Positions 5,377 to 63,127 of a DNA stretch of 64,000 nucleotides are shown piece after piece (position 1 is the first letter of the stretch; each line of letters starts with the position of its first letter). Below the pieces are notes generated by a model that was not told the DNA's origin, did not search any database, and worked only from the letters and a program-made list of their open reading frames with translations. A program made the translations under genes and the position numbers. The stretch is from a virus. The DNA lies in the IMG/VR virus record IMGVR_UViG_3300046373_000092, positions 18,066 through 82,065 of that record; one strand, given 5' to 3'.

Positions 5377-6363
5377 ATGAGCAAACAAAATGGATTGAGT
5401 ATGCTAGACTCTGGGCAAGTCATCCAAGAAGTCCACAACGAGTCAGAAAAAGCTTTAGACGTAATCTCAGCCAATAGCTTGGTCCCTAAGCGTTACGGAA
5501 AAGTAGAGTTAGAATATATACAATCTGCAGACGGAACTTGTAAAGCAGTTAGCACCGCTAAGTATTATTCAAATGGAGCCTACCAGTCACAGACTGCAAT
5601 AGTTCACGGAGACGTAATTGGAACTCCTCATAAAACCACTGTAAATTTCTTTAATCGAACTCCTTCAAATTTAGCAAACAATTACCTCAATATTTTTGAT
5701 AGTAACGGCTCTGTGTTGGTGTGGTTCAATTTAGATGGAACGGGAACTCCTCCCGACAGCGAAGACAGGTTAATAGAAGTTTCCATAGCTTCGTCAGATA
5801 CAGAACCCCAGCTTGCCCAAAAATTAAATGCGGCAATCAATACAGACATTAGCTTTTTCTCAGTAGTTCAAGATGTAATGGCTATGATCGTTAATTACGA
5901 ATCCGGTATTAGACAAAATAGCGTAGACATTAATTCTGGGCTAGTTTTAAAAAATATTCAAGGCGTAGATACGAATCGTTTAGATGGTAAATTTTTTTAC
6001 TTGAATAATGTGGGAATTTCCACACAATATTACGTCTGGTATAACGTAGATAATCTAAGCACTGATCCAATGGTTCCTGGAAGAACTGGAATCCAAGTAA
6101 ACATCCCCTATGGAGCCTCGGAAGAGCTAGTAAGTCTAAATACTGCATTCGCTATTGCTCAAACCACAGACTTCACAACAGAGAATTTCGACAATAAAAT
6201 CTGTATTAATAACAAATATATAGGTACGGCAGATATTATAAAGGATGTGAATTCTGCATTTTCTTTCAAGATAAATACGAAGGGAATGGACCGAGAATTG
6301 ATAGCGCAACTTGTAATGACGTATGACGTTAATAACGACTTAGTTTCCGTGGAAAGGTTATGA
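5377..6363 (+). CDS. Structural protein of the fibre cluster
   Basis: 328 aa, start behind AGGATATGAAGT. Two beta-rich halves each contain an aromatic segment of the type VLVWFNLDGTGTPP and YYVWYNVDNLSTDP, followed by GRTGIQVNIPYGASEE, so the protein looks internally duplicated. Its last 4 bases overlap the next start (ATGA). No enzyme signature. I infer a structural role from the context. Confidence 0.45.
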   Translation: MSKQNGLSMLDSGQVIQEVHNESEKALDVISANSLVPKRYGKVELEYIQSADGTCKAVSTAKYYSNGAYQSQTAIVHGDVIGTPHKTTVNFFNRTPSNLANNYLNIFDSNGSVLVWFNLDGTGTPPDSEDRLIEVSIASSDTEPQLAQKLNAAINTDISFFSVVQDVMAMIVNYESGIRQNSVDINSGLVLKNIQGVDTNRLDGKFFYLNNVGISTQYYVWYNVDNLSTDPMVPGRTGIQVNIPYGASEELVSLNTAFAIAQTTDFTTENFDNKICINNKYIGTADIIKDVNSAFSFKINTKGMDRELIAQLVMTYDVNNDLVSVERL

Positions 6364-6731
6364 AGTTCAATTTTAATCCTTTGAGTGCACAGTTTGAGCT
6401 ACAAGCCGGCAACTGTAACACTTCATCGGGAGGGGCAGCGCAGACCTTTGCTAGCGTCCCAGTTATTCAAAACATTCCAATAGCGAATGCAGATGAAGAA
6501 GTGGTCATTACGCTACCAGTAGGTACCAGAAAGCTAATGTTGAAAGTTAGAAACTACTCTTCAACAGTAAAGTTTAGCTACTCTCAAGGAGATAGCGGCA
6601 CCAACTACATGACAATTACTAGAGGCTGTTCTTACAGTGAAGACAATATTCTCACAGTTACTGGAAATACAAAAATATACATTCAATCGACCAAACCAAA
6701 TGTCGTAATTGAATGCTTAACATGGGCTTAA
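6360..6731 (+). CDS. Small hypothetical structural protein
   Basis: 123 aa, overlapping the preceding gene by 4 bases, so probably translationally coupled. The N-terminus MKFNFNPLSAQFE and a beta-rich body of alternating hydrophobic and polar residues suggest a compact virion protein. No recognised domain. Confidence 0.4.
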   Translation: MKFNFNPLSAQFELQAGNCNTSSGGAAQTFASVPVIQNIPIANADEEVVITLPVGTRKLMLKVRNYSSTVKFSYSQGDSGTNYMTITRGCSYSEDNILTVTGNTKIYIQSTKPNVVIECLTWA

Positions 6732-6741
6732 TGGAGGTTTT

Positions 6742-7668
6742 ATGAGTGGTTTAAACAAAGACAGGATTATTTTTGATCCAACTGATCCGACAGTTTCGGA
6801 AGACATTGGAGCCTACATTCGCGCAAGCGACGGCACTCTAATTACACACACCAATGTTGGTGGAAAAGATGGGTTAGATGTTAACATCATAAATCCAATT
6901 ACTGTAAATTCTGCATCTGATCGTGCAGAGGATTCAGCACACACTTCAGGAGATGTAGGATCTTATATTCTAGCTGTAAGGCAGGATACGTTGACATCTT
7001 CTACATCGGCTGATGGAGATTATGCTTCATTTAAAGTGGATTCAGTAGGGTCCCTTTATACTCGCGACACTGGAGTAAAGGCAAGTTTAGATTCTGTAAT
7101 TAAAACAGATAATGGAGCTTTCACAGATGGAGCTTCGATGGGGCTAGCTATGTTTGGGGTAGACGCTGCAAACACATACCAGCCGTTTAAATTAAACGCA
7201 GCAGGTGAGCTATTAGTAGCTGCAGATGTTTCAGTTACTACAGGTTCGGATAAAGTAGAGGACTCTGCTCACGCAAATGCGGACGTTGGTACTTACATTC
7301 TTTCTGTAAGAGAAGACACTCTAACAAGTTCTACTTCAGCTTCTGGAGATTATCAATCAATAAAAACAGACGCCCTAGGACGTATGTACACTAACGATGC
7401 TCACCAATCAATGTTAGTCACTCCTAAGTCTGTAACAACTACAGCCTCTGCTTTAGTAGCTTCAAGTTTAGCAAATAGAAAACAAATTCTTGTTCAGAAT
7501 ATTTCAAGTAAGAACGTTTATCTTGGAACTTCAGCGGCTGTAACAGATGTTAACGGATTTAAGCTTGGAGCTGGTATGTCAATAGAATTAGATTTGGCAG
7601 CAGCGGTAGCATTGTTCGCTATTTCCGTAGGTGCTGCAGCAGACGTAAGAATAATTGAATTAGCATAA
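6742..7668 (+). CDS. Tail-fibre-like protein with an internal duplication
   Basis: 308 aa. Two copies of about 50 residues stand at about 55-110 and 170-220; each has (E)DSAHxxxDVGxYIL, RxDTLTSSTSA and GDYxS. A C-terminal domain of about 90 residues ends in AAADVRIIELA and is clearly related to the whole of the product at 7870-8181 (ends TAADVRIQEMG). The duplication and the shared terminal domain point to modular evolution of fibre parts. Confidence 0.55.
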   Translation: MSGLNKDRIIFDPTDPTVSEDIGAYIRASDGTLITHTNVGGKDGLDVNIINPITVNSASDRAEDSAHTSGDVGSYILAVRQDTLTSSTSADGDYASFKVDSVGSLYTRDTGVKASLDSVIKTDNGAFTDGASMGLAMFGVDAANTYQPFKLNAAGELLVAADVSVTTGSDKVEDSAHANADVGTYILSVREDTLTSSTSASGDYQSIKTDALGRMYTNDAHQSMLVTPKSVTTTASALVASSLANRKQILVQNISSKNVYLGTSAAVTDVNGFKLGAGMSIELDLAAAVALFAISVGAAADVRIIELA

Positions 7669-7675
7669 GGATTAT

Positions 7676-7873
7676 ATGGATAAAAAACAAGAAGCCGCAT
7701 TAATTGATTCTACTTTAAAACTTCTTCGCAGAGGTAAATTCGAGTTGTCGGGAGATGAGGCTCTTGTTTTCCATTCCTGCTTTCAATATCTAGTTAAGAA
7801 ACTAAATGATCTTAATAAACCAGAAGTAGTAATATCTCCAGTTGTTGAACCAGTTAAGGGTAAGAAAAAATGA
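7676..7873 (+). CDS. Small basic hypothetical protein
   Basis: 65 aa, mostly helical (LIDSTLKLLRRGKFELSGDEALVF) with a Lys-rich tail. It starts behind AAGGATTAT and overlaps the next gene by 4 bases (ATGA). It could be a small chaperone or adaptor for the fibre genes around it, but nothing specific supports that. Confidence 0.4.
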   Translation: MDKKQEAALIDSTLKLLRRGKFELSGDEALVFHSCFQYLVKKLNDLNKPEVVISPVVEPVKGKKK

Positions 7874-8181
7874 GCGGGTTAAACGGTGGAGCAGAATATG
7901 CAGATGTCTTTACTGACGGATACGTAGCTGGACCAATTTCAGTTTCTACTACTCAAGTAGAGGCTAAAGTTGGAGCTACTCGATTTGCATTAAGAGAAAA
8001 TCTTCGTATATTTAATAACAGCACTACTACTATTTACTTTGGTCCGTCAGGAGTATCCTCTACAACAGGGGAGCCTCTTTTAAAAAATCAATGGGTAAAT
8101 ATTCCCATTGGAGATATTGCAGTATTCCTAATTACAGCTTCTGGAACAGCGGCTGATGTTCGCATACAAGAGATGGGATAA
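7870..8181 (+). CDS. Stand-alone homologue of the fibre C-terminal domain
   Basis: 103 aa. It aligns over nearly its full length with the last 90 residues of the product at 6742-7668: both have a ...TT..VEAKV/ALVASSLANR segment, a short strand with YFG or YLG, and end in A(A)DVRIxE. It overlaps both neighbours by 1-4 bases. Probably a virion beta-sandwich module; function unknown. Confidence 0.5.
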   Translation: MSGLNGGAEYADVFTDGYVAGPISVSTTQVEAKVGATRFALRENLRIFNNSTTTIYFGPSGVSSTTGEPLLKNQWVNIPIGDIAVFLITASGTAADVRIQEMG

Positions 8182-9919: not shown

Positions 9920-10288
9920 ATGGAAAAAGAATTCAAAGAAATGTTGATGAAGCGCATGCAGGAACAAGGAAAAGTTGATCCTAAAAAGCTTGAAGCAAAA
10001 GCTTCTATGATGAAAGAACTTTCTGACATGTTAGGAACTGACATGAAAGATAGCATCTCAAAAGGCATGAACAAAGTTACTGTAGCCTCGGATAGTCCAG
10101 AAGGCTTAGAAACTGGTTTAGATTTGGCTAAAAAAAAATTAAATGCTGAAGAGAACTCTGAAGACATGCCAGAAATGGAAGAGTCTGACGAAGAAAACTA
10201 TTCAGATGATATGCCAGAATCAGATGATGCAGAACTTGCTGAACTTGAAAAAAAGATTGCAGAATTAAAAGCTAAAAAATTAAAATAA
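9920..10288 (+). CDS. Acidic coiled-coil protein, possible scaffold
   Basis: 122 aa behind a strong ribosome site (AGGAGAGGAG). The N-terminal half is a charged helix rich in Met and Lys; the C-terminal half is very acidic (residues 78-105) and ends in a Lys/Glu helix (AELEKKIAELKAKKLK). Size, charge and a position just before the adaptor gene fit a small scaffolding or assembly protein, but capsid and portal genes are not visible nearby, so this remains a guess. Confidence 0.4.
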   Translation: MEKEFKEMLMKRMQEQGKVDPKKLEAKASMMKELSDMLGTDMKDSISKGMNKVTVASDSPEGLETGLDLAKKKLNAEENSEDMPEMEESDEENYSDDMPESDDAELAELEKKIAELKAKKLK

Positions 10289-10304: not shown

Positions 10305-11270
10305 ATGGCTACAAGCGGGGCGCTCACCACTAAAAAACTCATAGCGTCTATTAAACGTAGATGTATGATTCCTACATCTCAAGATACATTCACGGATGCT
10401 GATTTGATTGACTTCTTAAATGAAGAAATGATGATTGGCATTGTTCCTAAATTAATGCAGCTCAAAGAAGAATACTTAGTATTCGATGAGTACGTTAAAA
10501 TAGAATCTAACACTTCAGCCTATACTGTTCCAGAAAGAGCTTTGGGAAGTAAACTAAGAGAAGCCTCTTACGTTGACAGTCTAGATCAAGGAACTGCTAA
10601 TGCTAACGAATACGAGCTTACTCAGATCGGAGTAGACGAGCGTTATTCACTAGCAAACAACACAATTGAAACTAGTAATTGGAAAAGATTTTACATGGAA
10701 GGATCAGACCTAGTTCTATTTCCAGATGTAGGATCTAACCCCTCTGGTTATATAAGATTTTTCTACCACATCCGCCCAGGCACATTAGTTGCCGACACTG
10801 AAGTTGCAGTAATCTCAAACATAGACAGAACTACTGGAGTTATTCTACTGGCTAACGCGCCAACTAAATTTCAAACTGGAAAGCAGTATGATTTCGTAAG
10901 AGCACGTTCGCCTCATAACATTATATCAATAGATAAAATGGCTAGTAACTACAGCACGGGTACTAAGACTATTCAATTTGCAATAGACGACATTCCCGCC
11001 AATCTTCAAGTTGGAGATTATATTTCTGCAGCAGGAGAGAGCTGTATTCCAAGCGTTCCCACAGAGCTTCACTCTATTCTTGCGCAACGTGTTGCGCAAA
11101 GGGTGTTGGAGTCTATTGGAGATACTCAAGGCTTAACAAACGCTACCGCTAAGCTGGCAGAAATGGAATCTAACATGGCGATCATGCTCCAATCTCGCGT
11201 TGAAGGTGCTCCAAGAAAAGTAGTAAATAGAAACAATACCATGAGAAGAAACGGTAGAGGATATTTCTAA
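10305..11270 (+). CDS. Head-to-tail adaptor / tail tubular protein A-like
   Basis: 321 aa. The N-terminus carries LIASIKRRCMIPTSQDTFTDADLIDFLNEEM (residues about 10-40, helical), followed by a beta segment with YTVPERALGSKLREASYVD, then RFFYHIRPGTLV, and a helical C-terminus. This arrangement resembles the adaptor/gatekeeper proteins of podoviruses that sit under the portal. The very large gene directly downstream is the expected nozzle partner. It overlaps that gene by one base. Confidence 0.6.
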   Translation: MATSGALTTKKLIASIKRRCMIPTSQDTFTDADLIDFLNEEMMIGIVPKLMQLKEEYLVFDEYVKIESNTSAYTVPERALGSKLREASYVDSLDQGTANANEYELTQIGVDERYSLANNTIETSNWKRFYMEGSDLVLFPDVGSNPSGYIRFFYHIRPGTLVADTEVAVISNIDRTTGVILLANAPTKFQTGKQYDFVRARSPHNIISIDKMASNYSTGTKTIQFAIDDIPANLQVGDYISAAGESCIPSVPTELHSILAQRVAQRVLESIGDTQGLTNATAKLAEMESNMAIMLQSRVEGAPRKVVNRNNTMRRNGRGYF

Positions 11271-14200
11271 TGTCTCAATACTTAAACTTAAACCCAAAAG
11301 GTTTATTTACATACTACAATAACCTATCGGAGGTTTCTCCGGGAGCCCTTCTGAAGGGAACTAATACCGTTTTAAATAGAAACGGAGTTATTAATCCTAG
11401 ACGTGGTATAAAGTATTACGGTCCTACTCTGCCGAATCTTGCTGATAGAGCAAAGCAATTAATGCAATATAAAGATACCCTCATCCGCCACGTTAATGAT
11501 AAATTAGCGTTTGAAGTCGGAGCTGGAGTATTTACTGATTTTGAAGGTGACTTTACAGAAGTAATTACTGGAGAAAGAACAAAGTATTTAGAAAATAAGG
11601 GTAACTTATATTTCACATCGTCAGAAGGAGTTCAAAAGATTTCTGTAAAGGACGCTAGTGAATTTGGAGATGCAGTAATTACACAAACAGGGGCTCCGGC
11701 TGCTTTGGGTGGATACGCTCTTCCAAACTATTCGACATTAGGATTTTTAAATCTTGGGTCACAAGTTCCATACCAAGTTACATGGTCTATAAAAGATGCA
11801 AATAATTTACTTATAGAAGGAGTTCCTTCGGAAATAATTGTTTGTAAAAATGAATCTCCAACCTCAGATGTTTCTGTAGACCTAACAGTTCAGATTCCTT
11901 CTGGAGTAAATGAAGATTATATTTTAAGAATATACAGAGCCGAGCAGTCTCTCTTAACAGATCCACTCAAAGTAACTTATAATTTAGTATTCGAAGGTAA
12001 TCCGGAGACAGTAGATATTATTTTAGGATATATCACATACACTGATTTTGTTAACGAATCTTTTAGAAATGCGGGGGAGCCTCTTTACACAAACGCTACT
12101 TCAGAGGGTATTTCTCAAGCTAACTATAGACCTCCAAGTGCTCGTGACATTGAACTATTCAATAACTCCGTATTCTATGCAAATACCAGAGAAGCTCACC
12201 AAAAAAACTTTTCAATGATTACGTCAGAAGATTTACTTGCAACTACTAAAATTACGATTGCGGATAATGATGGCACATACACTGTCCAATTTAGAGGACA
12301 AACGGAACAATCTACTATAGTTGTTCAACAGTCTAGTTTAATTACTGACCATTCCTTTTTCTTGGTAAACTCAGCAAATAATGAAAGAAGATATTTTGTA
12401 TGGTTCGATAAAAGTGGAGATAATATTACTCCAGAATATCCAGAACACGTAGGAAGATTCCCTCTTCGCATTGACGTATCTACTCCAATGACGGCAATTC
12501 AAGTTGGAACTGAAATCGAAAATACATTAGCCAATTTACTAGACTTTGCAGTAACTAGTTTGCTGGGAATTGTATCCTTTTTCAATCTTTATAATGGATA
12601 TGCCGATGCTACCGCAGACAGCGTAGGGCAGCCTACTAACTTTACATTCACGACTTTGCAACAAGGTTTAGGACAAGATGCAAGTTTAGGCTTCGCATTA
12701 CTAAGTAACAAAACTACAGACGCAGAAAGAATCGCAGAAATGACTAAAAGTTTAGTAGATACCTTTACTCAGATGCAGAATAAATATATCGTAAAATATA
12801 CGAGTACTTTTGATAGCATTCCTGGTATATTCTCAGTCATGTCTTCAAGTTTAGTGGATATGCCGTTCTACATCACCACAAATGAATTCGACGCCTCAAC
12901 TTCGTTTAGTCCAGCCCTAAATGTTGCATTTACTAACACTACAGCTACGGTAAGTCCTTTGGCGTGTACTCTAACAACTTCAGCCCCGCATGGTTTAGTA
13001 GTTGGAGATAAAGTTTTCATCTATAACTTCAAAACTAATACTTCCACAGTTAGCGGTCAATACACAGTTACAGCGGTTCCGACTTCTACTACATATACAA
13101 TTAATTTGACTATACTAAGCTTACTTAGCGCGGGGTTTGTTACTAAAGCCGCTGGAGCTAGTGAGAACAACGCTACAATCAATAGCTTATATTTTTCTAA
13201 AGATAATCAGCCAGAGTCTGTTCCTTTAGTTAATCAAATTTTAGTGGGGTCTTCAGATGCTCCAATCTTAAGAATTAAGGCTCTCAGAGAATCCCTATTT
13301 ATTTTTAAGACCGACGGGCTATTCCGCCTAAGCGGGTTCAGTGCGAGTGATTTCGTAGTACAGTTATTCGACAACACAGTAATCTTAAAATGCCCGGACA
13401 GTGTAGCTAGTTTGAGCAACGAGATCTACTGCTTTGCTAATCAGGGAGTCGTAAAGATTTCTGAGGTTGGAAAAGACGTAATATCTAAGCCAATCTACGA
13501 CAAGTTAATCCCATTCATCACTACTAACACTAATCTAGCGAAGGCTACGTTTGGGGTGGCATATGAATCGGATAGATCGTACATTCTGTTTACGGTTAAG
13601 TCTAAATTAGATACTACTTCTACAGTGGCGTATCGCTACAATGTGGACACAGATTCTTGGACTGACTGGGATGTACACAAGACTTGTGGGATCTTAAAAC
13701 AACTAGACGATAAACTTTATTTTGGTTCAGCCATTGCCAATACACTTGAGCAGGAAAGAAAGGACTTTAACAGGTTCGACTATGCTGACAGAGAAATTAT
13801 TCTAAGCTTAGCAGCCTCTTCATTAACTGGCAACATAATCAAGCCTTCTAATTTTGAAACAGTTGCTGTTAACGATGTTATTACTCAAACTCAGTATGTA
13901 ACACTTTACCAATTTAACCAATTGTTAAAAAAATTAGATCTAGACAATGGAATAAACAGCTACAGCTTTTTTGCAAACTTAGCAGCAGCCCCAGGAGGAA
14001 ACCTTTCTTCTTATTTTACTTCTTTAGTAACTAGATTGAATATTCAAGACACGAATCCGTTTGTAGATACTCATGGAAATACTTCGTATGTGTTCAATGG
14101 ATCGAGTGATTTTGCATCTATCCAAACTCAATACAATGCAGTTATAGATAGATTAAATGAATCTCCAACGTTGTTTCTGAGCAACTACGCTAAGTCGCTA

Positions 14201-30289: not shown

Positions 30290-30492
30290 TTTAGCAGACC
30301 CTCAATAACAGAACTCCGGAAAACTCTAACATCTATTGCGGTATCATGGGTGGAATAGGGATCGTAAACTTCACGAAGAGGCACGAATTCAGATATCTCG
30401 TGTTCTAAATAATCTCTATCCTTTAAATATCTATAAATAAAACTTTCCTCGTTATCTACCCAAAAATATTTATTATCGAGAATACGTTTCAT
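30286..30492 (-). CDS. SxI-ELL family small protein
   Basis: 68 aa. N-terminus MKRILDNKYFWVDNEESFIY, C-terminus AIDVRVFRSSVIEGLLK (Gly for Glu-Leu spacing). ATGA overlaps on both sides. Confidence 0.65.
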   Translation of the reverse strand: MKRILDNKYFWVDNEESFIYRYLKDRDYLEHEISEFVPLREVYDPYSTHDTAIDVRVFRSSVIEGLLK

Positions 30493-59352: not shown

Positions 59353-59604
59353 TTATTCAATTTCCCAGTCAACTAGCTCTAAGTAGTTGGCGTCACCGTA
59401 AGTGTCGCATACGAAAGTGAGATGCATCTTATCGTTAGAAGCGAATAGTTCGCCATTCCCATAACTAAATGAAATGTCGTCGTGAGAGCATTCGTTTAGC
59501 TCACCGTATGTTTCTGTCTTAATATCTCCATGATCTTTTTTACACCCTAAGAAAAATGCTTCGAGGGCTTGGGCTTTAAATTTTTCTAAATCTGTTGGAC
59601 TCAT
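59353..59604 (-). CDS. Hypothetical protein
   Basis: 83 aa from the ATG at 59604 (behind GAGGTAATT). MSPTDLEKFKAQALEAFFLG then an acidic beta-rich domain with three Cys. A longer start is rejected because it overlaps a membrane-protein gene in another frame. Confidence 0.5.
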   Translation of the reverse strand: MSPTDLEKFKAQALEAFFLGCKKDHGDIKTETYGELNECSHDDISFSYGNGELFASNDKMHLTFVCDTYGDANYLELVDWEIE

Positions 59605-59606
59605 AA

Positions 59607-59762
59607 TTACCTCACTAAGTTTAGCACTGTGCTTAAGATTGCAGTTATCACTCTCAGGATGCCCTCGATGATAGCCTTCACAAACTCCACTACCACAATA
59701 GCTACTAACCATATTACTGGATAGAACATTATACATAGAATAAATATTAGTAGTAGGTTCAT
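59607..59762 (-). CDS. Small membrane protein
   Basis: 51 aa by hand translation: MNLLLIFILCIMFYPVIWLV then AIVVVEFVKAIIEGILRVIT. Strongly hydrophobic. It overlaps a second frame that is probably not translated. Confidence 0.5.
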   Translation of the reverse strand: MNLLLIFILCIMFYPVIWLVAIVVVEFVKAIIEGILRVITAILSTVLNLVR

Positions 59763-59771
59763 ATTGTTTTC

Positions 59772-59904
59772 CTAGTTGTCGTATACAGTTACTTTAAAAG
59801 ATTCGCCATTGGACTTACGAATGTTAACGTCAGCATAGAGTCCAGAAGTCACCATGTTGTGATTCATTTAGATTGATTGAAGTCTTATAAATTGTTCTAC
59901 CCAT
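59772..59904 (-). pseudogene. Frame-disrupted small gene
   Basis: From the ATG at 59904 the - strand reads MGRTIYKTSINLNESQHGDF and stops after 24 codons. Another frame continues GLYADVNIRKSNGESFKVTV to a stop at 59772. The interval is 133 bases, one more than a multiple of three. Either a frameshift or two tiny overlapping ORFs. Confidence 0.4.
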
Positions 59905-59931
59905 ACTTTCCTCACTTGTTTGTTATACTGT

Positions 59932-59953
59932 TATAGTTGCACTACCCATGCCA
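59932..59953. repeat. 22-base repeat, copy 2 (TATAGTTGCA...CATGCCA)
   Basis: TATAGTTGCACTACCCATGCC with a final A, matching 56837-56858 outside the central 5 bases. Confidence 0.6.
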
Positions 59954-59956
59954 TAA

Positions 59957-59985
59957 CACTAAGCTACTAAAATAATTCAGTCAAG
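59957..59985 (-). promoter_or_regulatory. Weak sigma70-like promoter, TTGACT-17-TAGTGT
   Basis: On the - strand TTGACT (59985-59980), 17 bases, TAGTGT (59962-59957). The -10 is poor, but the 22-base repeat follows at once and could carry an activator site. Confidence 0.35.
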
Positions 59986-60648
59986 CATTAAAAACGATTG
60001 TGTAAATTGTATACTGTTTAGACGAAATTGGATTTTCTTCAATGATTTCGCAGTGTACTACGATTGGACACTGTCTAAAGTTTGACAACTAAATACAGCT
60101 ACTTGCAAAGGCACTTAACTTATTGATAGTTTATGACGTGTGAATAGAGTTTGGGCACTGGAACATAACCTTGGACACTTGGTCTATCTAAATTTTAGAC
60201 GTAGCTATGGTCTTAGGAATTGGGCATTGAACATAGTTGCAGCTTTCAATTGGTTATGTATACTAGCGTATACAAAGTAGACAGGTCTTAATGCAAATTT
60301 AAGAGAGTGGTTGTAACATGCTGTTAAAGGAATAACTCTTTGAATAGGCTAGATTTAACTACGTCAATCTTAAAAGCGTAGACATCACTCGACAGCCTAG
60401 TCCGCCACGACAACATATTATGCTTGTCTTGAGATGACGCATAATGTCGTTGGTTGCAAGATGTTAATGGCTAGGAAGGTTAGATAGATGATGTAGGTTA
60501 ATTGCTTTAGAATAGTCTACCTCCTCTCCACTCTCCCAACTTCCCCAATCCCTCCTCCCATATAACGCACGACGTCATCTCTTGAAGTACTCTTCATAAC
60601 GCTAGCCGTTAGTGTCAAATCTAAACATACATATCTTTGGCATGTCCT

Positions 60649-60660
60649 TTGCATATGCAA
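60649..60660. promoter_or_regulatory. Perfect 12-base palindrome TTGCATATGCAA
   Basis: Self-complementary site within the gene-poor stretch; next to TGGCATGTCC, which resembles the complement of the 22-base repeat. Possible protein binding site at an origin. Confidence 0.35.
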
Positions 60661-61347
60661 GACTGATGCCCAAACTACTGTGTCATTTGACGTGGCACGT
60701 TAGTTGCTTACTGCAATGCCTATGCCATGTCGTGTAACGTTAGGGGGGGGTGGTTGTTTTTATTTGTAAGGTTGTAAGTACACACTATGCACACCATTCA
60801 GAACAATCTTAGTATGTGTACGCCATCTGTATTGCGTAATAATTTTGCAGATTCGAGAAGTAACCTTCACCATTGGAGCACTACACATGTAGGTATGTAG
60901 CCGAAGCCTTATGTGCATGCTTCCTAGGTGGCATTCTTAATGTCTGGTGATGTTTTATGCTTGACGTGAGGGGCTGAATGTACGTTAGAAGATATAAAAA
61001 TACTTAAGAAGGTATCTATTTCTCAGATTTGGCAAAGATACATGCGTCAAATCCTAGTAGTGTTTACTATATTACTGTGTTGTCCAAAAGTAATATAACG
61101 CTACATGCCTTATCTGAGGGGATTAGATGGGATTTCCACATCTTAAAGCTACAGGTTGGAGTTGTAGCCGAGCTAGGTATGTCTAAGCTCTTCTGCCGTG
61201 CTGTGCCCCGTTAATTGGTCGGAGTCTCTGGCACCTTAGCCTCTCGTTACCCTCGGCATTGCTGCGTCTTCTGGCGGGTTGGCTAAACCTCTGAATTGGT
61301 GATAGTCCTTCTCGCCTCTCATTTCACAGCTTACGGAGTTACCATCT

Positions 61348-61363
61348 CATATATATTTGTTAA
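61348..61363 (-). promoter_or_regulatory. AT-rich promoter-like motif on the - strand
   Basis: TTAACAAATATATATG read on the - strand (61363-61348), matching the + strand motif at 9875 exactly over 16 bases. It follows the stop of a SxI-ELL gene by one base and points into the gene-poor stretch. Confidence 0.5.
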
Positions 61364-61364
61364 A

Positions 61365-61532
61365 TTACTGAGATATTAAGGATTGGACTATCTGTGAAAG
61401 TAATGCAGTGTCTTTTATGTAAAGATAGTAAGACGGTCTGTACTTATATTCTAAATAAATGTCGGCTCTCGCAGTATACCACTGCAATTCTTTGTAAAGA
61501 GATAATTTAGGGTTCAATCTATACCACCTCAT
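61365..61532 (-). CDS. SxI-ELL family small protein
   Basis: 55 aa by hand translation. N-terminus MRWYRLNPKLSLYKELQWYT, C-terminus YLYIKDTALLSQIVQSLISQ (Ser for Glu). ATGA overlap with the upstream member. Confidence 0.6.
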   Translation of the reverse strand: MRWYRLNPKLSLYKELQWYTARADIYLEYKYRPSYYLYIKDTALLSQIVQSLISQ

Positions 61533-61717
61533 ATCTTCATTACCAATTGCAACACTACCGCCGACCTAACAACTCCGAAGCGGAGATTCAGATAACCCGA
61601 CACGGGCTTTACAAACGACCTACCACCCCGGCTTGCCAATACTATACCTCTAATTTGCGTAGACAAAGACTTATGCCCAAGTAAAGGATAATACATACGT
61701 GATTTAGAAGTTTTCAT
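61529..61717 (-). CDS. SxI-ELL family small protein
   Basis: 62 aa. N-terminus MKTSKSRMYYPLLGHKSLST, C-terminus LNLRFGVVRSAVVLQLVMKI. Strand plus helix, E-L pair replaced by Q-L. Confidence 0.6.
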   Translation of the reverse strand: MKTSKSRMYYPLLGHKSLSTQIRGIVLASRGGRSFVKPVSGYLNLRFGVVRSAVVLQLVMKI

Positions 61718-61890
61718 AAAAACAATGCCTTGAATATATCCGACTTAAGGCTATTGACGTCCAAGCTCAGGAAGTCTGTATACCGATTGGAGTTGTAAGT
61801 CGTTTCATTGAAGTAGGTATCGTAATGCCTCACTCGAATGGGTAGGGCAATAAACAAATTAAACTTACTGTAGTAGGTGTAGAACTTCAC
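61714..61890 (-). CDS. SxI-ELL family small protein, GTG start
   Basis: 58 aa by hand translation from GTG at 61890. N-terminus (V)KFYTYYSKFNLFIALPIRV, C-terminus LSLDVNSLKSDIFKALFL. Confidence 0.65.
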   Translation of the reverse strand: MKFYTYYSKFNLFIALPIRVRHYDTYFNETTYNSNRYTDFLSLDVNSLKSDIFKALFL

Positions 61891-62048
61891 GTCAGTAGCT
61901 CCTGCACTACTTTAGATAGTCCCACTAAACTCTTTATATTCAACACTCTAGGATCTGAAAACTTCGATCCTCTTCCGTGTACGCCCAGCTCATAATTTAG
62001 TTCGAATACTAAAGATCTCTCACGGTTAATCCATAGCCACTCATCCAT
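61887..62048 (-). CDS. SxI-ELL family small protein
   Basis: 53 aa by hand translation. N-terminus MDEWLWINRERSLVFELNYE, C-terminus VLNIKSLVGLSKVVQELLT. GTGA overlap with the next member. Confidence 0.65.
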   Translation of the reverse strand: MDEWLWINRERSLVFELNYELGVHGRGSKFSDPRVLNIKSLVGLSKVVQELLT

Positions 62049-62049
62049 A

Positions 62050-62247
62050 CTATTCTCCAATTAACTCAGCCACAAGTTCTGACAATATTGCTTGCATACA
62101 AACTCTTGTAGTTCCGGCAAGGGGCTTTAAACTCATCCTAGGACTAAAGGTCCTCGTGAATTGAGTGGCGTTCAAGTAGTCATTTTTGTATAGTCGGAGA
62201 TCCGAGAAATAGTACAAGTATAAACAAGATTTGTTTTTTGTACTCAC
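62050..62247 (-). CDS. SxI-ELL family small protein
   Basis: 65 aa. N-terminus MSTKNKSCLYLYYFSDLRLY, C-terminus TTRVCMQAILSELVAELIGE. ATGA overlap with the upstream member. Confidence 0.7.
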   Translation of the reverse strand: MSTKNKSCLYLYYFSDLRLYKNDYLNATQFTRTFSPRMSLKPLAGTTRVCMQAILSELVAELIGE

Positions 62248-62444
62248 GATAAAAGCTCCGTCAGTATTTGTGAATACACCGCTTTCTTTTTGACTGGTAG
62301 CATATTATGTTTCCTAACTTCAGAAGTACTAATAAAACCGTTATCGTCTTCTCGGTCTTCCTGATTGTACCACAACTCACTAATTACAAAACTTCGGCTA
62401 TAGTATCCGTAGTAGTGATCAGGATTTGTTATTTTAATGGTCAC
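62244..62444 (-). CDS. SxI-ELL family small protein
   Basis: 66 aa. N-terminus MTIKITNPDHYYGYYSRSFV, C-terminus LPVKKKAVYSQILTELLS. Confidence 0.7.
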   Translation of the reverse strand: MTIKITNPDHYYGYYSRSFVISELWYNQEDREDDNGFISTSEVRKHNMLPVKKKAVYSQILTELLS

Positions 62445-62607
62445 GCAGCAGCTCCCTAACTATGGGAGAGTTTAAAGCTGCCGCTGCCAACACTAAGTCC
62501 CCCGTCCTTCTAATATAAGTGTTAGGATTTGTATTACCGAGAATAGAATGGGGCTTTCCATTTAGGATAAGATCTGTAATATTTGGAAACCATCTATATC
62601 TTTTCAT
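62434..62607 (-). CDS. SxI-ELL family small protein
   Basis: 57 aa from the ATG at 62607. N-terminus MKRYRWFPNITDLILNGKPH, C-terminus DLVLAAAALNSPIVRELLRD. Confidence 0.7.
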   Translation of the reverse strand: MKRYRWFPNITDLILNGKPHSILGNTNPNTYIRRTGDLVLAAAALNSPIVRELLRDH

Positions 62608-62783
62608 GATAGCAGCTCCCATACTACTGCAGAGGTTAGAGCTGTCTTTTTAATTACAGGGTAACCCCCTGCATGAGTAGTGCCAAAAATTGGATTTAAA
62701 ATTGTAGACCGGTTATTGGTGAACCTCTGTACTTCCCCCATAAGTGAATTTAAGTTCATGTATACCCAATAATCATATCCCAT
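62604..62783 (-). CDS. SxI-ELL family small protein
   Basis: 59 aa from the ATG at 62783 (MGYDYWVYMNLNSLMGEVQR), chosen for a GGGAGAGG ribosome site and family length. C-terminus YPVIKKTALTSAVVWELLS. First gene of this - strand run; its upstream side faces the + strand motif at 62798. Confidence 0.65.
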   Translation of the reverse strand: MGYDYWVYMNLNSLMGEVQRFTNNRSTILNPIFGTTHAGGYPVIKKTALTSAVVWELLS

Positions 62784-62797
62784 CCATCCTCTCCCAC

Positions 62798-62813
62798 TTA
62801 ACAAATATATGTG
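62798..62813 (+). promoter_or_regulatory. AT-rich promoter-like motif TTAACAAATATATGTG
   Basis: Fourth copy, in the divergent gap between the - strand SxI-ELL run and the + strand zinc protein gene, 18 bases before the ATG at 62831. Confidence 0.5.
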
Positions 62814-62830: not shown

Positions 62831-63127
62831 ATGGAGTATTCTAACATGTCTAGTCAAATTTGTAAACACTGTTCTTCAGAAAAAGAAAAGATATTTTTAA
62901 AGACCTATCGATCAGCGGCAGTATACGTAAATGCTAAGGGAGACCGTTGGTACGGCTCTAGGTGCCCAGACTGCTACAAAGACTACAAACTGTCTTACGA
63001 TGCGGCGCGACGCCTTAAGAAGGGTCACATACCCATCGGAGCGCAAATAGCCTGCCCCAAGTGTTCTGCTCCAACTGTTATGGAAAATGGAGGGTGCAAG
63101 TTGTGTACGGATTGTCGTGATAGATAA
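62831..63127 (+). CDS. Zinc-binding protein, four CxxC-type knuckles
   Basis: 98 aa from the ATG at 62831 (an ATG at 62846 is also possible). CKHC near residue 10, CPDC near 44, CPKC near 77 and CTDC near 93 give two or more zinc sites; the middle reads YKDYKLSYDAARRLKKGH. Resembles small phage recombination-endonuclease or zinc-ribbon proteins. Driven by the AT-rich motif just upstream. Confidence 0.5.
   Translation: MEYSNMSSQICKHCSSEKEKIFLKTYRSAAVYVNAKGDRWYGSRCPDCYKDYKLSYDAARRLKKGHIPIGAQIACPKCSAPTVMENGGCKLCTDCRDR

Follow-up and report, generated by a model that had tools for sequence, protein, structure and literature searches.

A reversed late-class promoter facing a gene-free stretch with paired dyads: a probable control region, transcribed but non-coding, in a group of 81-84 kb phages

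T7 phiOR and the T4 origins are gene-less phage promoters tied to replication. In phages of the phiEco32-like group (kuraviruses), a phage sigma factor recognises middle and late promoters that consist of a single element (PMC8948821). The giant phage RNAs ROOL and GOLLD (PMC12286853) are often found near tRNA genes or a tRNA island. The locus described here belongs to a previously unstudied phage group and shares features with each of these systems. We take it for a probable control region, transcribed but non-coding, with a replication origin as one possibility, and not for a known giant RNA. The locus was singled out as one where the late promoter of these phages has no gene to serve; its anatomy is firm, and the mechanism proposed below is what we infer from it.

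The window, that is, the whole 64,000-nucleotide stretch analysed, spans positions 18066-82065 of a virus record that is 82,065 bases long (IMGVR_UViG_3300046373_000092, genome g). Because the first 127 bases of this record recur at its end, g is a complete genome, circular-mapping and 81,938 bp long. Its structural genes comprise a T4-type terminase, a portal of the SU10/P22 type and a capsid with a weak match to the SU10 type, and its replication genes a DNA polymerase, a DnaB-like helicase, an Erf-like annealing protein and an exonuclease. By terminase and portal, the nearest named phage is the Silvanigrella-associated MWH-Nonnen-W8red phage (28-29% identity). Relatives were found by an exact promoter search of viral contigs, which gave 50 single hits and one multi-copy record, followed by terminase profiles. 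The closest, genome h (IMGVR_UViG_3300002092_000003, 80,981 bp, seven promoter copies), is syntenic with g, with 71% identity in the terminase and 80% in the capsid; genomes i (IMGVR_UViG_3300045963_000248, 84,509 bp) and j (IMGVR_UViG_3300045918_000320, 81,292 bp) have terminases at 54-55%, and genome sizes across the group are about 81-84 kb. DNA polymerase relatives at about 40% (L003-L013) lacked both the locus and the promoter motif in the records examined. The terminase had no relative in GTDB genomes, hence no host or prophage evidence was obtained. Two observations concern other parts of these genomes: a protein with a match to the Mom family (DNA modification; 38.8 bits against a cut-off of 27.1) is encoded within the late block at L002:13838-14860 (+), and the major capsid gene of h appears interrupted at about 30300-30460 (G015 reversed), its N-terminal part being set apart by a gene-free, stem-rich stretch suggestive of an intron.

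Under a mechanical gene model (ORFs of at least 45 aa with a ribosome-binding site, or of at least 110 aa), the longest uncovered stretch of g is window 59763-61364, which at 1602 bp far exceeds the runner-up of 613 bp and bears out the preliminary description of this DNA, where it had been called the longest stretch without a coding sequence. By the same model the gap is likewise the longest in j, while in i one other is longer. No DNA match to the gap region was found among 50,697 phages. Two ORFs of 24 and 31 aa, both on the left edge of the gap, could be genuine small genes; the 24-aa one (59830..59904, minus strand; MGRTIYKTSINLNESQHGDFWTLC), by direct reading preceded by GTGAGGAAAGT, is the first leftward ORF and stands at the head of the leftward gene block. 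Scoring by codon usage failed to tell genuine small genes apart from background, so we call the stretch non-coding on the grounds of ORF length, of ribosome-binding sites and of recurrence across the relatives.

The gap had been placed at the junction of leftward and rightward genes, which is not the case for the main junction: both flanks (59353-59904 and 61365-62783) are leftward, and gene direction and TA skew turn about 7 kb away, at about 4.7 kb of the record. On the left, a protein search with the gene at 59353-59736 gave no relative. On the right, an ORF scan revealed a tandem array of eight overlapping paralogous ORFs of about 55-66 aa (61365..62783, minus strand) with a common C-terminal A-L-x-S-x-[IV]-x-x-E-L-L-like motif and no Pfam match, the last stop of which abuts the late promoter. 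Small-ORF arrays stand at the same place in i (6570-8041, MKLxYFxDDGEI family) and h (11309-12496). Beyond the array lies a Cys-rich, zinc-ribbon-like gene of 98 aa (62831-63127, plus strand), without a match in named phages, which is conserved beside the locus in h, i and j and is served by a late promoter of its own, TTAACAAATATATGTG, facing right at 62798..62813 (plus strand). A 21 kb fragment, k, carries a shorter homologue of this gene and no matching gap or dyad.

The promoter motif emerged from an unsupervised count as AACAAATATA, the most over-represented 10-mer of genome g. Its core, TTAACAAATA, occurs ten times on the plus strand, mostly 27-129 nt ahead of late-block genes, and once on the minus strand (shuffle mean 0.55); two further weak matches fall inside genes. 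The single minus-strand copy is the one that faces the gap: TTAACAAATATATATG, an exact match at 61348..61363 that points left. An AT-rich promoter motif had been reported at precisely this place and in this orientation, and it is an exact copy of the genome-wide promoter-like word. Its sequence being the same as that repeated before late genes, we regard it as the phage's own predicted late-class promoter. For this group the late promoter is defined purely by sequence, as a single word with three diverged forms. Nearly all other copies lie 25-160 nt from a gene; the gap-facing copy of g is more than 1.4 kb from the next good gene, and in three genomes this distance is 1.1-1.5 kb. As a separate observation, several late leaders longer than 45 nt open with a stable hairpin exactly where transcription presumably starts (over all four genomes, 5 of 16 at p<0.05, against 4% of random positions).

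Diverged counterparts of the promoter, TTAACAACTT in i and TTAACAACTA in j, are over-represented as well and again occur ten times on the plus strand and once on the minus strand. The lone minus-strand copies (6581 in i, 33809 in j) are again found at this locus, with the conserved Cys-rich gene to their right, and each faces a gap of about 1.1 kb. The earlier proposal of promoter-driven transcription into a non-coding region is therefore supported, by the phage's own late promoter and by its placement, kept in two relatives. All promoter copies of h are on the plus strand, and one of them, at 10059, stands by itself with no gene; relocated and flipped, it points toward the dyad from the opposite side, about 1.1 kb off and with two small genes between. 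To the left of the promoter, the order of elements is common to g, i and j: about 500-600 nt without genes, a C-tract, the dyads and the first leftward gene. The stretch of C-tract and dyads can be aligned between genomes (z of 14 for i-j, about 5 for g-i and h-i), and the preceding RNA part gives no alignment between genomes, even for i and j.

The C-tract of g (60743..60750, minus strand; G8 on the plus strand) is one of only two G/C runs of at least 7 in the genome, and its counterparts beside the dyads are C7 in i, C6 in j and C9 in h. Next to it lie dyad 1 (TGGCATAGGCATTGCAGTAAGCAACTAACGTGCCA, 60693..60727), made of two inverted TGGCAY-N5-TTGCW half-sites, and dyad 2 (GGGCATCAGTCTTGCATATGCAAAGGACATGCCA, 60638..60671). 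A 12-base palindrome mentioned in the preliminary description does exist: it is TTGCATATGCAA, the centre of the 34-bp dyad 2. A genome-wide scan for such inverted pairs of TGGCAT-N5-TTGCA gave two in g, one each in h and i and two in j; all six are confined to the gap locus, with about 0.06 expected per genome, and the more distant phages examined had matches at chance level only. The outer arms mirror each other at 29 of 36 positions and the inner arms at 26 of 30, against 4 of 30 in the middle, so the dyads look like paired protein-binding DNA, putatively half-sites one helical turn apart, rather than an RNA stem. RNA hairpins were rejected for them, as the middle does not pair.

Sigma54 (RpoN) promoters have the consensus TGGCAYG-N4-TTGCW with GG-N10-GC spacing, into which the half-sites fit. 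We doubt that the dyads are ordinary sigma54 promoters, since back-to-back inverted pairs would be an odd arrangement for promoters. Lone sigma54-like copies are correctly placed ahead of the first gene in g and in i, and not in j. That of g, TGGCATGGGTAGTGCA (59938..59953, minus strand; GG-N10-GC), precedes the first leftward ORF by about 35 bp and may serve it; i shows a like arrangement, with its copy at 5535 (minus strand). At the corresponding place h carries a near-perfect sigma70 promoter, TTGACA-17-TATGAT (within 11036-11230), before its first leftward gene, and j has TTGCTA-17-TATACT. The repeated TTGGGCA-type words noticed earlier proved significant: TTGGRCAYT occurs nine times in the window against 2.0 expected, a count that none of 100 shuffles reached. 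Four of the nine, all on the plus strand (60064, 60151, 60171 and 60220), are packed into the 165 bp of 60064-60228, a cluster not seen as a common feature in h, i and j.

The predicted transcript can be divided into a GC-rich, U-poor 5' part (61119..61347, minus strand) and a remainder up to the C-tract (60751..61118, minus strand) in which ORF and codon scans and the gene model supported no ORF. The first 230 nt in g have 51% GC, against 39% for the genome, and 17% U; 0.2% of windows are as high in GC and 0.2% of strand windows as low in U. Over the first ~230 nt, GC reaches 51, 49 and 41% in g, i and j, against 36-39, 32-38 and 21-29% in their other gaps; this signal is absent in h. In i and j, hairpins start exactly where the 5' end of the transcript is presumed to lie.

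Much of the preliminary case for a structured RNA did not hold. Its nested stems, TTAGCC/GGCTAA and ACCC/GGGT, do appear in the predicted fold of the 5' part, but the fragment folds like its shuffles (z -0.15), and the whole 5' part is likewise near shuffles (z -1.2 to -1.6). A covariance-model search of the relatives, which had been suggested as a check, found that a single-sequence model of these stems matches only itself; covariation could not be counted because the RNA parts of these few relatives fail to align. The terminator-like element proposed near 60990-61015 (ATAC..GTAT followed by T5) is almost wholly A-T, and no intrinsic terminator was called on the minus strand. Rfam gave no match, relaxed thresholds included, at E <= 5 in g or <= 1 in h, i and j, and no tRNA lies within the 64 kb window; the precedent of ROOL and GOLLD thus found no covariance-model match in any of the four genomes, and both are excluded as matches. 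With no Rfam family, no excess stability, stems absent in relatives and an unconserved RNA part, the structured RNA as proposed is not supported; a fast-evolving RNA gene of an undescribed kind is possible at the locus.

An origin had also been suggested, with mixed outcome. The dyads, unique in each of the four genomes and double in g, and the TTGGRCAYT cluster of g fit initiator sites of an origin, and in all four genomes a gene-less promoter reads toward the dyads. GC and TA skew, on the other side, turn at the start of the late genes, about 7 kb from the gap; skew may follow gene direction instead of origin position. The AT-rich flank is among the lowest 0.5% of windows in j and ordinary in g, i and h (6-18%).

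We give a probability of about 0.42 to the reading that the late promoter leads into a transcription-activated, origin-like or replication-control site at the C-tract and dyads. The single reversed late promoter points leftward off the end of the small-gene array, across about 0.6 kb without genes, to the C-tract and the two 34-bp dyads and on to where the leftward block of early and replication genes begins. The dyads would bind a phage initiator or regulator, late transcription through them would open or prime the element, and the RNA may be a by-product or primer only. Counted against this reading are that no initiator was identified, that promoter and dyad are parted by two small genes in h, and that the GC-rich, U-poor 5' part in three genomes would have no explanation if the RNA were a mere by-product.

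That last feature speaks for a discrete, functional late RNA, some 200-600 nt long and extending no further than the C-tract, trans-acting or structured and of an undescribed family, in which case the dyads would be a separate operator of the early operon. Such an RNA would account for the late promoter that has no gene to serve in any of g, i, j and h and for the 5' hairpins of i and j; in h, moreover, the unit is moved and flipped, which rules it out as a leader for leftward genes. We nevertheless hold it to be possible rather than likely, as neither sequence nor structure is detectably conserved, even between i and j, fold energies are near those of shuffles, a clear terminator and an Rfam family are lacking, and h is without the composition signal. 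Doubtful, too, is a reading that joins RNA and dyads, in which the reversed promoter would make a fast-evolving non-coding RNA aimed at the double dyad with its mirror-image, sigma54-like half-sites, linking late transcription to replication or early-gene shut-off, with both RNA and dyad outside described families.

A further reading is a plain leader: the reversed promoter would keep the leftward genes for replication and takeover on late, by way of a very long 5' UTR. In g, i and j the leftward block does follow downstream on the promoter's strand, no strong terminator intervening, and in phiEco32-like phages promoters of the phage sigma factor also stand upstream of some middle genes, with middle and early genes running opposite the late cluster (PMC8948821). 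We consider this unlikely, since the other late promoters lie nearly all within 25-160 nt of a gene, against 1.1-1.5 kb here in three genomes, and that of h points the wrong way. As the h promoter cannot serve leftward genes, the transcription-linked origin or control site, somewhat likelier than a trans-acting RNA, and that RNA both rank above the long leader. Least probable by far is that small genes of the adjoining array decayed and left the gap as a remnant, its promoter being fortuitous. Gene-array turnover next door and a paralogue-like C-terminus, SSLFKELFL, at 60324-60416 (minus strand; weak and not significant at E 0.3) would agree with decay, yet the length of the gap, the direction of the promoter, the C-tract and the dyads are all found again in diverged relatives, and the reading is largely refuted. 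Should the locus be an origin or a non-coding RNA gene, one promoter and two dyads would offer a compact, testable handle on the link between late transcription and replication.

Set beside known systems, the locus shares with GOLLD and ROOL a long non-coding phage stretch of presumed late expression, and differs from them (PMC12286853) in lacking an Rfam match, a tRNA cluster and an RNA part conserved in relatives. The phiEco32-like phages differ in their motifs, tAATGTAtA or GTAAtg-16-aCTA (PMC8948821) as against TTAACAA[AC]TA here, and no Sigma70 region 2 or 4 domain was found across g, h, i and j; likenesses are the genome size class, the SU10/P22-type portal, early and middle genes opposite the late cluster (PMC8948821) and a short promoter of one element that recurs in front of late genes. 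Although no T7-type RNA polymerase was detected, in a search that lacked a working positive control, the locus has in common with T7 phiOR/phiOL and the transcription-primed origins of T4 a gene-less phage promoter that reads into a special DNA site.
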